Below are positions 5,275-11,878 of a stretch of 64,000 nucleotides of DNA, piece by piece. Positions within the stretch are counted from its first letter, which is position 1; each line of letters begins with the position of its first letter. This stretch comes from Sulfurimonas sp. HSL-1716. GTDB lineage: Bacteria; Campylobacterota; Campylobacteria; Campylobacterales; Sulfurimonadaceae. The notes under the pieces are model-generated. The model ran no database searches, had not been told where the DNA came from, and saw nothing but the letters and a program-made list of their open reading frames with translations. Location: contig NZ_CP147918.1 in NCBI RefSeq assembly GCF_039645975.1, positions 558,001-622,000 of the forward strand, in the 5' to 3' direction. Made by a program: the position numbers and the translations under genes.

Positions 5275-6018
5275 ATGAAAGTAGGTGTTTTTGACAGTGG
5301 TATCGGAGGATTGACGGTTGTTAAATCACTTCTTAAGCACCGGTTTTTCGAAGAGATCATCTATTTTGGCGACACTGCCAGAGTCCCTTACGGTATCAAA
5401 GACAAAAATACTATTATCCGTTATGCCATCGAGGCTGTAGAGTTTTTCAAAAACTTCGAACTGGATCTTATTATCGTCGCATGTAACACCGTGAGCGCGT
5501 ATGCGCTTGAGGAGATGAGAGAAAATTCTTCCTGCCCCGTTATCGGCGTTATCGAATCGGGAGCCCTTGCCGCGCAGAATGCCATCACTTCTAAAGAATC
5601 CAATATTCTCATCATCGGTACGAAGGCGACGATAAATTCGAGATCTTATGAAGAGAAGCTTCACGCTCTGGGGTATACGAACCTGCAGGCAAAAGCTACA
5701 GGTCTTTTCGTTCCGCTCGTGGAGGAGGAGATATACGAGGGAGAGATAATACAATCTGCTTTTCATCACTATTTTAACGCCATTGAGGCTCCGAGTGCCG
5801 TCATCCTCGGATGCACTCACTTTCCTCTTATCGCAAATGCTTTGCAAGACTATTTCGGCAAAAAGTGCCTGCTTATTCATTCGGGAGACGCCATAGCGCA
5901 GCAGCTAGAAAAAGAGTTCGATTTTACAAAAAGATACGCATCTCCCGAGTTGAAGTTTTTTGCTTCGGAGAACCCTGATGCCTTGCGAAATATTGCGAAA
6001 AAATGGCTGGATTTATGA
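5275..6018 (+). CDS. murI: Glutamate racemase
   Basis: This 247-residue cofactor-independent racemase makes D-glutamate for peptidoglycan. Catalytic motifs are present: VFDSGIGGLTV at the N-terminus, VACNTVSAY with the first catalytic Cys, and VILGCTHFPLI with the second. A GAGGAG Shine-Dalgarno (5262-5267) lies 7 bases before the ATG at 5275; a TTG just upstream is less suitable. It follows rho closely, suggesting cotranscription. Its stop overlaps the ATG at 6015 of the WD40 gene by ATGA. Confidence 0.95.
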   Translation: MKVGVFDSGIGGLTVVKSLLKHRFFEEIIYFGDTARVPYGIKDKNTIIRYAIEAVEFFKNFELDLIIVACNTVSAYALEEMRENSSCPVIGVIESGALAAQNAITSKESNILIIGTKATINSRSYEEKLHALGYTNLQAKATGLFVPLVEEEIYEGEIIQSAFHHYFNAIEAPSAVILGCTHFPLIANALQDYFGKKCLLIHSGDAIAQQLEKEFDFTKRYASPELKFFASENPDALRNIAKKWLDL

Positions 6019-8138
6019 TCAAAGACAATAAAAAATTCGATACTGCAGTAAAAAATCTCGCTTACGATGAAGAGAACAAACATCTCGGAGTATTGACGCA
6101 AGACGGAGATTTCAGGATATTCAATGATGACCTTTCAACGATGGTCTGGGGACTTCGCACACGTATCGTCCAAGAGCATCTCCTAAGACAAACGGAGTTT
6201 ATTTCGGATGATTTGAAATATATCGTCTTGGCAAAACCAAAGACGAACGAAGCGTCTGTTCTTGACGTAAAAAAGAAAAAGATACTCTATACCATATCTA
6301 AAAACAGCGGAGAGATCGAGACGCTCTTTATAAACAACACCAACAAATACCTTTTATCAGGCGGTGTTGACGGCAGAACATATATATTTAACCTTCAGAC
6401 CGGACATTTTCTCTATAATCTTCCTTCACACGCAGATTATGTAACGGCCATTACCGTGACAAACACTGCTCAGCTTGTCGCTACGGGGAGCTTTGACGGT
6501 ACTATCTATCTTACGAACCTCAATACGTTGAAAAATCCAGTGAAACTGACGGGACATAGAGGGTATATCAGCGGAATAGAGTTTTTAAACAATGGAAAAC
6601 TGGTATCTGCGGACAAAAACGGAAATATCATTATCTTTGATTTTGTTCAAAGAAAAATAAAGAAAAGACTTCAAAAAGTACCCGACGACATCACTAAAAT
6701 AAAAGTCGACGCAAACAGAGAGTTTCTTTTTGTCGGCACAAAGCTCGGAAAGGTCTTGGTATATGATCTTACAAAAGAGAAGCTTTTTGCGAATAATTTC
6801 CGAAAGTTCAACGCATCTATCAGCAAAATAGCTTTGACAAAAGACGGATATCTGTATGTGGGACTGCAAAACGGAGAGATACATAAAGAGAAGCTTATAG
6901 ATGAAGAGAAGTACGAAACCTTTTATGAAAAAAACGACTATTTAGCTATTTACGATGAGCTGGAGAGATCGCCTTTTGTCATCTATACACAGGCGTACAA
7001 AAAAGCGGAACGTACGTGGGAAGAGGCTTTGTTCTCTGCTAAAGAGCTCCTTTCGCAGCAAAAAACGCAAGAAGCGAAAAAGATGCTTGAGCCTTTTAAC
7101 GATGTACCGAAAAAAAGAACCGTTATCAAGACCATCATAAAAGAGTTCGCGGAGTTCGAGAAGTTTAAAAGCTATGTCGAAGGCAATAAATATTCACTGG
7201 CATATCAGATGACGCTTATGAATACCTCTTTTTTGGATACGAAAGAGTATAAAAAAATGGAAGGCGACTGGAGCAAAAAGTTTAACAAAGCCCAGGATAT
7301 TATCCTTGATCCACGTTCGGACGAGATAGTCAAAGAGCTGCTCAAAGATTTTCGCGGCATCCCCTCAAAAACCAAACAGATCCAGCAGCTTTTTAAAGAC
7401 AAAATTGCTTATAACATGCTCAAAAAAAGGCTGGATGCGAAAAACTACAAAGAGATATTCGGACTGATAAAACAGTATCCTTTTTTAAAAGAATCTCAAG
7501 AATATGAGATGCTTATAAAATATGCCGACAACTGCTACATCAATCTCATGAAAGCGTTTTCGAAATCGGACTTTTCAAAAGTAAAAGAGTATTTGGAAAT
7601 ACTGGATGGTTTTGAGGACTATGACGAGGAGCTAAAAAGCATCCAAAAAGAGATAACGGCGCTGATACAGCTGACACAGGCATGTAAAAGCAACGACAGA
7701 GTTAAGATGTATGAAATACTAGACAGTCTCAGCCATACCGTTAACCTTGAATGCGTGCAAAAGATCAAACAAGAGTGGCAGGAGATTATGAATGAAGCGG
7801 ATACGCTCACTTACGGCGGCGATGTCAAAAAACTGATCGAACTCTTCAAAGATTTTTTTATTATAAAATCAAAAAGTATGATCATTAAAAAATATATTTT
7901 TTCCGCATATGTCCAGGAACTTGAGCAGATGATGAAAGATGCGGGACCGCAAAACGAAAAGATCAAAGCGCTTGTAAAAGACAAGATAGTAAAAGTAAAC
8001 GACATGTTCGGTTCTATCGAAGAGATACGATCCCTTTTATATAGCTATAACGGTTTTTACGGGGATACTTTCGAAATTACCGACGAAAAGCCCGAACAGG
8101 ATATATCCAAGAAGGAATATATCGATTTTTTTGGATAA
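6015..8138 (+). CDS. WD40-repeat beta-propeller protein with helical C-terminal half
   Basis: The protein has about 707 residues and no signal peptide or membrane segment, so it should be cytoplasmic. Residues about 1-300 carry degenerate WD40 blades, for example GGVDGRTYIFNL, TGSFDGTIYLTNL and SADKNGNIIIFDF, each about 40 residues. Residues 310-707 are strongly helical and charged, with no enzyme motif that I recognise. I chose ATG 6015, which gives an ATGA overlap with murI; an in-frame ATG at 6003 would add four residues. The propeller-plus-helix layout suggests a protein scaffold (inference). It is probably cotranscribed with murI and may extend to the lsr-like pair. Confidence 0.75.
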   Translation: MIKDNKKFDTAVKNLAYDEENKHLGVLTQDGDFRIFNDDLSTMVWGLRTRIVQEHLLRQTEFISDDLKYIVLAKPKTNEASVLDVKKKKILYTISKNSGEIETLFINNTNKYLLSGGVDGRTYIFNLQTGHFLYNLPSHADYVTAITVTNTAQLVATGSFDGTIYLTNLNTLKNPVKLTGHRGYISGIEFLNNGKLVSADKNGNIIIFDFVQRKIKKRLQKVPDDITKIKVDANREFLFVGTKLGKVLVYDLTKEKLFANNFRKFNASISKIALTKDGYLYVGLQNGEIHKEKLIDEEKYETFYEKNDYLAIYDELERSPFVIYTQAYKKAERTWEEALFSAKELLSQQKTQEAKKMLEPFNDVPKKRTVIKTIIKEFAEFEKFKSYVEGNKYSLAYQMTLMNTSFLDTKEYKKMEGDWSKKFNKAQDIILDPRSDEIVKELLKDFRGIPSKTKQIQQLFKDKIAYNMLKKRLDAKNYKEIFGLIKQYPFLKESQEYEMLIKYADNCYINLMKAFSKSDFSKVKEYLEILDGFEDYDEELKSIQKEITALIQLTQACKSNDRVKMYEILDSLSHTVNLECVQKIKQEWQEIMNEADTLTYGGDVKKLIELFKDFFIIKSKSMIIKKYIFSAYVQELEQMMKDAGPQNEKIKALVKDKIVKVNDMFGSIEEIRSLLYSYNGFYGDTFEITDEKPEQDISKKEYIDFFG

Positions 8139-8172: not shown

Positions 8173-8460
8173 ATGACGATCACCAAACGTGTGACATTTA
8201 TTGCCAAACCTGATGGAATCGAGAAGATGAAAGAGCTTTTAACTGCGATGGTCATACCTTCGCAGGCTGAAGACGGTTGTATATTTTACGAGATATTTCA
8301 ATATGAGAACAAACCTGAAAAATTTATGGCGGTAGAGACTTGGAGAGACGAAGCAGCACTTGACGGGCATAAAGCTTCAGCACACTACAAGATATACAAA
8401 TCAAGTTATGAACCTTACTGTCTTGATAAATATACGGATGAACTGGAAGTTCTGGGCTAA
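8173..8460 (+). CDS. Antibiotic-biosynthesis-monooxygenase (ABM) fold protein, LsrG-like
   Basis: This 95-residue protein has the ferredoxin-like ABM fold. The family marks are a first strand RVTFIAKPDGIEKMKELL, the strand pair CIFYEIFQYENKPEKFMAVETW, and the helix ALDGHKASAHYKIY with a conserved His. LsrG, which isomerises phospho-AI-2, belongs to this fold, and the next gene is a clear LsrK, so an LsrG-like role is inferred from context. The residue-level match to E. coli LsrG is loose. An AAGGAG Shine-Dalgarno lies just before ATG 8173. A 58-base gap separates it from lsrK. Confidence 0.7.
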   Translation: MTITKRVTFIAKPDGIEKMKELLTAMVIPSQAEDGCIFYEIFQYENKPEKFMAVETWRDEAALDGHKASAHYKIYKSSYEPYCLDKYTDELEVLG

Positions 8461-8518
8461 GAGTTTGAAATATCCGTCTTTAGACGCAAACGTCGACAAG
8501 CGGAAGCAAGGAAGTAAA

Positions 8519-10081
8519 ATGAGTTATTTGATGGCCATAGACGCAGGAACGGGAAGCGTAAGGGCGGTGATCTTCGATACAAAAGGCAAGCAGATAAGCG
8601 TGTCTCAAAGAGAGTGGACGCATCTTGAAGAACCGGGTGTGCCAAACAGTATGAGCTTTGATTGTCAAAACAACTGGCTTCTTGTCTGCGAATGTATAAA
8701 AGAATCTTTGAAAAATGCGGATCTCAAAGGCGAAGAGATAACGGCTCTGAGCGCTACGAGCATGCGTGAGGGGATCGTGCTTTACGATAACGAGGGCAAT
8801 GAGCTTTTTGCAGTAGCCAACGTAGATGCAAGAGCCTGTGATGAGGTAAAGTATCTCAAAGAGAACTTTCCCGGCATCGAAGAGGAGTTTTACGCCATCT
8901 CAGGTCAGACCTTTGCTCTTGGAGCGCTTCCCCGAATCATGTGGCTGAAAAACAACAGAGAAGATGTCTATGAAAAGGTATCGCGTATCTCCATGATAGG
9001 AGACTGGATACTTTTCAAGCTTAGCGGTATTATCGCGACGGATCCGAGCAACGGGGGCACTACGGGGATATTCTCGCTTAAAGACAGAGACTGGCAAAGC
9101 GAAATGGCGGCAAAGACCGGCCTAAAAGATGATATTTTTCCTCCATGTCTGGAGGTCGGCACGCTTATGGGAACAGTGAGCGAAAAAGCCGCACATGAGA
9201 CGGAGCTTTGTTTATCTACAAAGGTCGTGATGGGAGGAGGCGACGTCCAGCTCGGTTCTGCCGGTCTGGGTGTCGTAAACGAAGGTGATGCGGCGATTTT
9301 GGGAGGATCGTTCTGGCAGCAGATCGTCAACATTTCAAGCGGTGTCATACCTCCAAAAGATATCTCTGTGCGCGTTAATCCGCATGTCGTAAAGGGGCAG
9401 TCACAAGCCGAAGGGATAACCTTTTTCAGCGGTCTTGTGATGCGGTGGTTCAGAGATGCCTTTTGCGACATGGAAAAACTCGAAGCCCAAAAAAGAGGCA
9501 TGGATGTTTACGCGGTTTTGGAAGAGAAAGCCAAAAGCGTACCTGCGGGCTCGCACGGCATCATTCCCATCTTCTCCGATTCTATGAAATACGGCAGATG
9601 GTATCATGCCGCTCCGAGCTTTTTAAACCTCTCTATCGATCCAACTGTATGCAACCGTATTTCGATGTTTAGAAGCCTGCAGGAAAATGCGGCGATAGTA
9701 TCGAGCATAAACCTGCAGAAAATAAAAGAGTTTACGGGCATCGAGATAGATACCGTCGTATTTGCCGGAGGAGCGAGCAAAGGCACCCTTTGGCCTCAGA
9801 TACTCGCAGACGTCACGGGATGCAGTGTCAAGATCCCAAAAGTAACCGAAGCGACGGCTTTGGGTGCGGCAATGGCCGCTGGTGTCGGAGCGGGGATATA
9901 CGAAGATATAGTGTCTGCGGCAAACAGATTGGTTGTCTGGGATAAAACGTATGAGCCAAACATGCAAAACAAGCAGATCTATGATGAGCTAAAAACAAAG
10001 TTCGAGCATGCTTACAGCGCTCAGTTGAAGCTTGTAGACGAAGGCGTGACGACCTCTATGTGGAAGGCTCCCGGGCTGTAA
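8519..10081 (+). CDS. lsrK: Autoinducer-2 kinase LsrK (FGGY family)
   Basis: This 520-residue FGGY kinase opens with the ATP-binding DAGTGSVRAVIFDTKGK. It matches E. coli LsrK as I remember it at several specific places: SMREGIVLY, NVDARACDEV, GGGDVQLGSAGLGVV, FWQQIVN, RVNPHVVKG, MRWFRDAFC, YHAAPSFLNLSIDP, VFAGGASKGTLWPQILADV, ATALGAAMAAGVGAGI and the C-terminus TSMWKAPGL. These lie outside the generic FGGY signatures, so this is not merely a glycerol or xylulose kinase. LsrK phosphorylates the quorum signal DPD/AI-2 in the cytoplasm. Start ATG 8519 has AGGAAG (8509-8514). A longer frame from 8360 would overlap the upstream gene and is not credible. No lsrR, lsrACDB or lsrF is in this window. 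Confidence 0.88.
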   Translation: MSYLMAIDAGTGSVRAVIFDTKGKQISVSQREWTHLEEPGVPNSMSFDCQNNWLLVCECIKESLKNADLKGEEITALSATSMREGIVLYDNEGNELFAVANVDARACDEVKYLKENFPGIEEEFYAISGQTFALGALPRIMWLKNNREDVYEKVSRISMIGDWILFKLSGIIATDPSNGGTTGIFSLKDRDWQSEMAAKTGLKDDIFPPCLEVGTLMGTVSEKAAHETELCLSTKVVMGGGDVQLGSAGLGVVNEGDAAILGGSFWQQIVNISSGVIPPKDISVRVNPHVVKGQSQAEGITFFSGLVMRWFRDAFCDMEKLEAQKRGMDVYAVLEEKAKSVPAGSHGIIPIFSDSMKYGRWYHAAPSFLNLSIDPTVCNRISMFRSLQENAAIVSSINLQKIKEFTGIEIDTVVFAGGASKGTLWPQILADVTGCSVKIPKVTEATALGAAMAAGVGAGIYEDIVSAANRLVVWDKTYEPNMQNKQIYDELKTKFEHAYSAQLKLVDEGVTTSMWKAPGL

Positions 10082-10126: not shown

Positions 10127-11878
10127 ATGCAAACGACACTCACACAGACTTGGCTGGACAGGTTGGATCTTCTGGATATCGCCTTTCAGCCGATCTTAAA
10201 TATCCATACCGGTAAAATCTATGCAGTCGAAGCTCTGCTGCGCAATGTCGAAGATGCCGGATTTAAGTCTATATTCTCTCTTTTTGACAAGGTATACAAA
10301 GAGGGTATCCTTTACCCTTTTGATATAAAACTAAGAGAGATCGCGTTTGAAAAATTCACTACCATACCCGGCTACAAAGAGATAAAACTTTTTTACAATC
10401 TTGACAACCGCCTTTTCGAGATAAAGAACTATTCTCACGGAAATACGAAAAGATTATTAGAACAGTTCGATATCTCAAAAGACAATATCTGTTTTGAGAT
10501 ATCCGAACGTCATGAGATAACTCAGGAATGCGATATAACCACAGTCTTAAAACATTATCAGGATGAAGATTTTTGCATAGCTATCGATGATTTCGGGGTA
10601 GGACATTCAGGGTATAAGCTTCTGTATGAAAGCACTCCAAACGTCATTAAGATAGACAGATTCTTTTTAAGCGGTATCGAAACGAACATGAAAAAAAAAC
10701 TGCTTGTCAGAAACATAACGAACCTGGCGGTACAATTCGGTATAAAGGTCATAGCAGAAGGGGTGGAAACAAAGGAAGAGCTTCTAACCTGTAAGGATAT
10801 CGGATGCCACTATATACAGGGGTATCTCATCCAAAGACCGACCTTGAACGCCAAAGAGATAAAACCTCGTTATGAGGAGATCGTGGAGATTCTAAAAAGT
10901 GATAAAAGAGCAAAAGATATAAACTCCCAGATAAACGCATACATAGACAGGGCAAAGCCGTTTGATATAAAGACAAAAACGGCGGAGGTACTCAAATATC
11001 TCAAAGAAAATCCGAATATAAGTATCATGCCCATTGTCAACTCTTTGGATGAACCGATGGGCATCCTGCAGGACAAAGAGATAAAGAACTTTTTGTATTC
11101 GCCTTACGGGATGTCGCTTTTAAACAACGATTTTACGCAAAAGACAAAACTGAAAAATCTGATGACACCATGCGGTACCGCCGATATCAACAGTGACATA
11201 TCCACGATAATAGAGCTTTTTTCCAATAATCCCGAATCGGTCGGCATCCTTATTACAAAGAATTCAAAATATGTCGGATTTCTCTCTGCGCGTGCGATCA
11301 TCACTATCATGAACGAACAGAATCTTATCTTTGCAAGAGAACAAAATCCGCTCACAAAACTGCCCGGCAATATGGCAATAGACAGATATCTTGCCGGTAT
11401 TTCGGATGACAACTGCATCCTGTGCTATTTTGATCTGGACAATTTTAAGGCGTATAACGATAACTATGGATTTAGAAACGGGGACAGGGTGATAATGCTG
11501 TTTGCGGATATTTTAAAACAAAATCTTCCCGGCGAGTTTTTTAAAGCGCATATCGGCGGAGATGATTTCTTTGTCGCCGTCAAATTTCATAAAAACGGTG
11601 AGATCGCTTACGTAAATGCCATAAAAGAGATCATAGAAAAGTTTTCGCAAGACGTAAAGGCTTTTTATAGCCAAGAGGATCTGCAAAGAGGGTATATCGT
11701 GGCCAAAGACAGAGAATGCAAGACGAGAGAGTTTGCTCTGCTGAGCGTCAGCGCTTCTGTCATAGTGATAAAAACAAAAACAAAAAGAGATCTGGAGAGC
11801 ATCAATATGGTTTTGTCTTTTCAAAAAAAGATCGCCAAGAACGACAACACGAAGATATGTATAAGCAGTTTGTTGTAA
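10127..11878 (+). CDS. EAL - CBS pair - GGDEF signalling protein (cytoplasmic)
   Basis: This 583-residue protein has an unusual order. The N-terminal EAL phosphodiesterase domain (about 1-250) has FQPILNIHTGKIYAVEALLR, DDFGVGHSGY and IAEGVET intact, so c-di-GMP hydrolysis is plausible. A tandem CBS module (about 270-400) follows, a likely nucleotide sensor. The C-terminal GGDEF domain (405-583) carries the variant GGDDF in AHIGGDDFFVA and no RxxD inhibitory site. No TM segment is seen. It follows lsrK by 45 bases, so an AI-2/c-di-GMP link is possible, but a promoter-like ATATTGTAGTGTTATATTG in the gap allows separate expression. Confidence 0.85.
   Translation: MQTTLTQTWLDRLDLLDIAFQPILNIHTGKIYAVEALLRNVEDAGFKSIFSLFDKVYKEGILYPFDIKLREIAFEKFTTIPGYKEIKLFYNLDNRLFEIKNYSHGNTKRLLEQFDISKDNICFEISERHEITQECDITTVLKHYQDEDFCIAIDDFGVGHSGYKLLYESTPNVIKIDRFFLSGIETNMKKKLLVRNITNLAVQFGIKVIAEGVETKEELLTCKDIGCHYIQGYLIQRPTLNAKEIKPRYEEIVEILKSDKRAKDINSQINAYIDRAKPFDIKTKTAEVLKYLKENPNISIMPIVNSLDEPMGILQDKEIKNFLYSPYGMSLLNNDFTQKTKLKNLMTPCGTADINSDISTIIELFSNNPESVGILITKNSKYVGFLSARAIITIMNEQNLIFAREQNPLTKLPGNMAIDRYLAGISDDNCILCYFDLDNFKAYNDNYGFRNGDRVIMLFADILKQNLPGEFFKAHIGGDDFFVAVKFHKNGEIAYVNAIKEIIEKFSQDVKAFYSQEDLQRGYIVAKDRECKTREFALLSVSASVIVIKTKTKRDLESINMVLSFQKKIAKNDNTKICISSLL

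Follow-up and report, generated by a model that had tools for sequence, protein, structure and literature searches.

Genes of the locus and identity of the kinase

The window considered in the current analysis is a stretch of 64,000 nucleotides (G000:C1:558001-622000) from the single 2.26-Mb contig of G000, the genome of a bacterium related to Sulfurimonas and of the sulfur-oxidising type. A gene coding for a protein of the ABM fold and an lsrK gene lie there as a tandem pair on the + strand. The pair is flanked at the 5' side by rho, glutamate racemase and a beta-propeller protein, and at the 3' side by an EAL-GGDEF protein and dnaX. The features are given below in window positions.

8173..8460, + strand: ABM-fold protein of 95 aa, candidate phospho-DPD isomerase; ATG at 8173, stop at 8460, AAAGGAG upstream
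8461..8518, + strand: gap of 58 bp with no gene, the site of a 391-aa class II aldolase gene in most sister species
8519..10081, + strand: lsrK, autoinducer-2 (DPD) kinase of 520 aa; ATG at 8519, stop at 10081, GGAAG upstream
10127..11878, + strand: EAL-CBS-GGDEF protein (Pfam EAL and GGDEF), an adjoining gene outside the proposed system

The beta-propeller protein directly 5' of the ABM gene (window 6003-8138) is a 711-aa protein of WD40/beta-propeller type with a long C-terminal region, and its top Pfam matches are eukaryotic WD40 families.

The kinase, over residues 1-520, matches the autoinducer-2 kinase equivalog of NCBIfam (NF008187) with 869.6 bits, about 340 bits above the cut-off of 528. 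The second-best NCBIfam model is that of xylulokinase (190 bits against a cut-off of 380), and none of the other FGGY models reaches its own cut-off. The best solved relative is LsrK of E. coli (PDB 5ya0, 651 bits; the next FGGY kinase scores 99), with which the kinase shares 56% identity across the whole length. The residues T11, S13, R83, E84, D242, Q244, F302 and R312 correspond to the identical residues T21, S23, R93, E94, D253, Q255, F312 and R322 of E. coli LsrK, among which T21, F312 and R322 are binding-site residues and S23 lies in the catalytic cleft (PMC8028047).

In a tree of 42 rows (LG+G4), whose outgroup branches remain long, LsrK sequences are set apart from GlpK, XylB, LyxK, FucK and AraB with a support of 100/99, and the window kinase is found inside the LsrK clade. 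An earlier mixture-model tree was set aside on account of its saturated outgroup branches. Inside LsrK, a clade with a support of 99/99 unites the Campylobacterota rows with those of Shewanella, Ferrimonas and a record titled Algicola. The nearest named relatives of the window LsrK are from Sulfurimonas and, more widely, from other Campylobacterota (Sulfurospirillum, Sulfurovum, Arcobacteraceae). Campylobacterota-like lsrK genes are also seen in the metagenome records L110, L133 and L141, titled Helicobacter pylori, Algicola and Helicobacter cetorum respectively; these titles may be wrong.

The sequence-only reading had named the gene lsrK, had pointed to its C-terminus TSMWKAPGL and had proposed a tree against other FGGY kinases. 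The C-terminal motif is present as described, and the identification is borne out by the model score, the tree and the identical active-site residues. A chance open reading frame or a generic FGGY kinase is ruled out by the model score and the tree. To judge from its sequence, the window kinase is a full-length LsrK.

The ABM protein and a class II aldolase as third partner

The upstream gene is no chance open reading frame, as it has matches in 156 of the 228 genomes of the family (one of the order Campylobacterales). Its product is a true member of the Pfam family ABM (54.6 bits, cut-off 23.1) and gives 28.3 bits with the LsrG equivalog NF007791, the cut-off of which is 135; E. coli LsrG scores 191.8 and the S. 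meliloti homologue 110 with the same model. The AlphaFold model (pLDDT 94.5) has the ABM fold and superposes on LsrG with a TM score of 0.92 (3qmq, Z 16.1, rmsd 1.4 A), and other ABM proteins tie with LsrG, so that the fold search does not discriminate among them. The earlier description of this gene as LsrG-like holds for the fold; the score stays below the LsrG family cut-off and the protein is equally close to other ABM proteins. Orthology to LsrG is rejected, and the role of the protein is LsrG-like at best.

Since the LsrG score is far under its cut-off and the closest solved relatives are PA3566 and YE0340, the protein could instead be an unrelated monooxygenase, of quinol or antibiotic type, that lies upstream by chance, with only LsrK and the aldolase described below cooperating. 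We hold this to be doubtful though worth consideration. The ABM gene is linked with lsrK across genera and stays with both lsrK and the aldolase gene despite many rearrangements, and its co-occurrence with the aldolase in the 228 family genomes is 153/11/3/61 (both, aldolase only, ABM gene only, neither). With lsrK it occurs in 148 genomes, while 10 have lsrK only, 8 the ABM gene only and 62 neither.

A Cupin_2 gene has been identified directly 3' of lsrK in 10 fetched loci, many of them with no ABM gene (for example L151:10663-11037, L153:10576-10944 and L146:3473-3880), and at the same position in Salmonella, Lacticaseibacillus and Deinococcus plasmids. This cupin may be a second phospho-DPD isomerase. 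As a strict replacement of the ABM protein it is suggestive only, because both genes are present in 2 of the 57 well-flanked loci (cupin without ABM gene in 5) and Salmonella has LsrG and the cupin together.

Sister species of the window bacterium have the gene order ABM-aldolase-lsrK (L033, L034, L036 and L037, and with extra genes L035). The aldolase of 391 aa represents the first portion of PRK08324, a family of bifunctional aldolase/SDR proteins, and its model (pLDDT 91) matches class II aldolases, the best being 3m4r. In Shewanella hanedai and Ferrimonas marina the order is aldolase - lsrK - cupin. The window species has no aldolase gene beside lsrK, and the only aldolase of the PRK08324 family in its genome (G000:C1:1755805) is a protein of 653 aa with an intact SDR half. 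The initial reading of the locus as a pair was correct for both genes and their coordinates and missed this conserved third partner.

Among the 228 family genomes lsrK is encoded in 158 and the aldolase in 164; 152 have both, 6 lsrK only, 12 the aldolase only and 58 neither, counts that are not independent of descent. Of the 18 genera, 11 include at least one genome with both genes, a number that may go back to few events, and the other 7 are without either gene; no genus has lsrK and lacks the aldolase. The aldolase tracks lsrK and not mtnK (p=0.37). Order-wide, 62 of 397 genomes and 20 of 68 genera have lsrK. In 9 of the 57 well-flanked loci lsrK has neither ABM gene, aldolase nor cupin alongside.

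Two unusual loci were also observed. L176:12340-15066 (G217) is a 908-aa open frame in which an aldolase with a decayed SDR remnant runs into mqnE-like sequence, and G211:C11:50823-52385 is an lsrK with 12 in-frame stops, apparently a pseudogene, adjoining an open aldolase frame.

The SDR half of the aldolase family follows a distribution of its own. MtnK is encoded in 25 of the 26 genomes with a full-length aldolase/SDR and in 7 of the 122 in which the SDR is truncated or missing (p about 6e-21, with no correction for descent); contig ends may account for some of the truncations. In G128, G093, G217, Shewanella, Ferrimonas and Sinorhizobium, the copies linked to LsrK have lost the SDR motifs and kept the aldolase E, HxH and NHG residues, which makes the aldolase half appear sufficient for the LsrK branch. 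The aldehyde arising from the MtnK branch seems to require the SDR. A reduction by the SDR before cleavage of the LsrK product is disfavoured by the loss of the SDR in the LsrK-only versions.

Linkage to methyl-cycle genes, and lsr components that were not found

The neighbours that recur at lsrK are genes of S-adenosylmethionine (SAM) metabolism. Among 105 lsrK loci, 19 have a linked metK, 8 a linked luxS and 6 a linked mtnK, the linked gene being without exception on the strand of lsrK. The metK loci show at least three orders (ABM-lsrK-metK, ABM-metK-aldolase-lsrK and ABM-aldolase-lsrK-metK), and in the genera g8, g14 and g15 luxS, lsrK, the ABM gene and the aldolase lie inside about 4 kb. 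Operons with the methylthioribose genes are seen as ABM-mtnK-mtnA-aldolase/SDR-lsrK in G096 and as ABM-lsrK-metK-mtnK-mtnA-aldolase/SDR in G199. In the window genome the aldolase, luxS and lsrK are far from one another. Outside the window it encodes MtnK (score 477.8, cut-off 275), MtnA (409.8, cut-off 279) and the aldolase/SDR (1001.9, cut-off 831) contiguously, the 653-aa aldolase/SDR being directly behind MtnK-MtnA in one operon.

At 27 of 79 loci, lsrK or its operon is closely followed on the 3' side by mqnE, the gene for the aminofutalosine synthase of menaquinone synthesis (a radical-SAM protein); the identity of mqnE has been confirmed by NCBIfam at L135:10573-11634.

As the aldolase family also occurs behind mtnK-mtnA, lsrK is in some species part of one operon with the genes of the methylthioribose route. 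The kinase might have turned to a different linear C5 sugar, such as 5-deoxyribulose, 1-deoxyxylulose or methylthioribulose, as the compound by which the class II aldolase is supplied. We regard such a shift as improbable: the LsrK active-site residues are unchanged, the link to luxS points to DPD, and lsrK is kept where mtnK and the fused aldolase occur, so that it is no replacement of mtnK.

The further lsr genes that the first observation had noted as lacking were indeed not found. None of lsrACDB, lsrR and lsrF is found near the window pair. No protein of the LsrB family (Peripla_BP_4) is encoded in the window genome; in the genus, 2 of 8 genomes have one. The LsrF model has no match in the window genome and none above the cut-off in the 228 family genomes, the E. 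coli control genome also giving a score only below the cut-off and so being no clean positive control. A single query that combined LsrF, LsrB and LsrR of E. coli, the only search for LsrR, likewise found no match in the window genome. HPr, which binds LsrK in E. coli, is absent from it as well. The search for luxS that had been proposed gave a positive result, with an HxxEH motif and a score above the curated cut-off. The window set is not an lsr uptake system.

With a genuine LsrK and a c-di-GMP gene directly 3' of it, a role in AI-2 signalling or quenching has also been considered, in which AI-2 from outside would enter by an unknown route and be trapped as phospho-DPD, so that neighbours are silenced or sensed, perhaps with coupling to c-di-GMP. 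This has little probability in our estimate. Quenching of outside AI-2, one of the initial suggestions, is disfavoured because no known importer was found, and the window genome has no LsrB-family protein, no HPr and, by the combined query, no LsrR. The recurrent neighbours are luxS, metK and the mtn genes, and the EAL-CBS-GGDEF gene adjoins lsrK in 5 of the 8 genomes of the window's own genus, with no such case seen in other genera. The c-di-GMP link, also an initial suggestion, is not supported. With LsrB-type import, LsrR and HPr not found, the role of the set would be one in metabolism rather than in quorum sensing.

Proposed salvage of DPD and comparison with known systems

We consider it likely that the window pair is the remnant of a Campylobacterota cassette, devoid of an importer, for the disposal and salvage of the cell's own DPD. 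LuxS frees DPD, the precursor of AI-2, when homocysteine is regenerated in the activated methyl cycle, and inside the cell LsrK would convert it to phospho-DPD. An isomerisation by the ABM-fold protein, or by the cupin in some lineages, would then probably turn phospho-DPD into 3-hydroxy-2,4-pentanedione 5-phosphate, as LsrG does. The PRK08324-type class II metal-dependent aldolase, in the place of LsrF, is predicted to cleave the isomer to dihydroxyacetone phosphate (DHAP) and a two-carbon piece, most likely acetate. In the window species the single aldolase/SDR behind mtnK-mtnA would take over for the absent dedicated aldolase, so that one enzyme would serve both the DPD branch and the methylthioribose/5-deoxyribose branch (DHAP shunt). 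Recycling would then be the purpose of the set. The sequences themselves show the identity of LsrK, the lsr parts that are missing, and the co-occurrence and linkage of the partners, and the later steps (isomerisation by the ABM protein, cleavage by the aldolase, release of acetate) and the purpose are inferred from them.

The product of LsrG from phospho-DPD is CH3-CO-CHOH-CO-CH2OP, the 4-keto form of 5-deoxyribulose 1-phosphate. The latter compound is the substrate of the DHAP-shunt aldolase (PMC6079011). The C3-C4 bond would be cut as in the DHAP shunt, but acetate would leave instead of acetaldehyde, which fits a dispensable SDR; the loss of the SDR half is the one pointer to acetate. We know of no class II aldolase that cleaves a beta-diketone.

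The wider proposal is of an unrecognised route of AI-2 degradation, in which a class II aldolase would replace the thiolase LsrF in a retro-Claisen cleavage of the phospho-DPD isomer to DHAP and acetate. In Campylobacterota this route would be wired to a combined salvage of SAM by-products and not to quorum sensing, with one aldolase serving LsrK and MtnK/MtnA, and the same enzyme would act in the lsr operon of S. meliloti. Taken as a whole, this proposal seems to us evenly balanced between right and wrong.

LuxS is widespread and most of the bacteria that have it are without a known AI-2 receptor (PMC2561040). If the proposal is true, one large group gains a concrete use of DPD in its phosphorylation, cleavage and carbon recovery. 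LsrK could then be purely metabolic, LsrF would have an unrelated functional equivalent that is active also in the model symbiont S. meliloti, and in these lineages it would be misleading to annotate an AI-2 kinase as a quorum-sensing protein.

Surveys have reported lsr systems in gammaproteobacteria, the Bacillus cereus group, Rhodobacter, Sinorhizobium and Spirochaeta (PMC3420918), and no lsrB was found in epsilonproteobacteria (PMC2561040). The literature searched, which covered few subscription journals, gave no description of LsrK in Campylobacterota or of a class II aldolase with LsrK, and no paper in it joins lsrK with Sulfurimonas, or 'autoinducer-2 kinase' with Epsilonproteobacteria or hydrothermal. 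Papers naming lsrK along with aldolase or methylthioribose are, in the portions available, not about such a link, and the DHAP-shunt papers searched make no mention of lsr genes.

With the lsr operon of E. coli and Salmonella (lsrACDBFG, lsrRK) the window pair shares the LsrK active-site residues and an adjoining protein of the LsrG fold. It differs in that the window genome is without matches to LsrB, LsrF and LsrR and without HPr. The aldolase of the Campylobacterota set is of class II whereas LsrF of E. coli and Salmonella is of class I type, and LuxS and methyl-cycle genes are linked to this set, unlike the lsr genes of these organisms.

Complete import operons (lsrACDB, an LsrR-like regulator, lsrK and an LsrG-like gene) have been identified on plasmids of Sinorhizobium meliloti, which has no luxS (PMC2561040), and Rhizobium sp. 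WL3. Both operons have a PRK08324-type aldolase with no SDR half beside lsrB, in the position of lsrF, and neither has a gene annotated as lsrF. The WL3 aldolase has about 40% identity over 419 residues to the aldolase of the Sulfurimonas family. The rhizobial systems thus resemble the Campylobacterota set in having a PRK08324-type class II aldolase with lsrK and differ in the presence of the importer, the LsrR-like regulator and the LsrG-like protein.

By analogy, the Campylobacterota set works like a branch of the DHAP shunt (MtnK, MtnA, Ald2 or DrdK, DrdI, DrdA). The two have in common the logic of kinase, isomerase and class II aldolase, with DHAP obtained from a by-product of SAM, and mtnK-mtnA are in one operon with lsrK in some relatives. 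They differ in the aldolase, which is here of the bifunctional PRK08324 type and not FucA-like, and in DPD, which LsrK would bring in as a third by-product.
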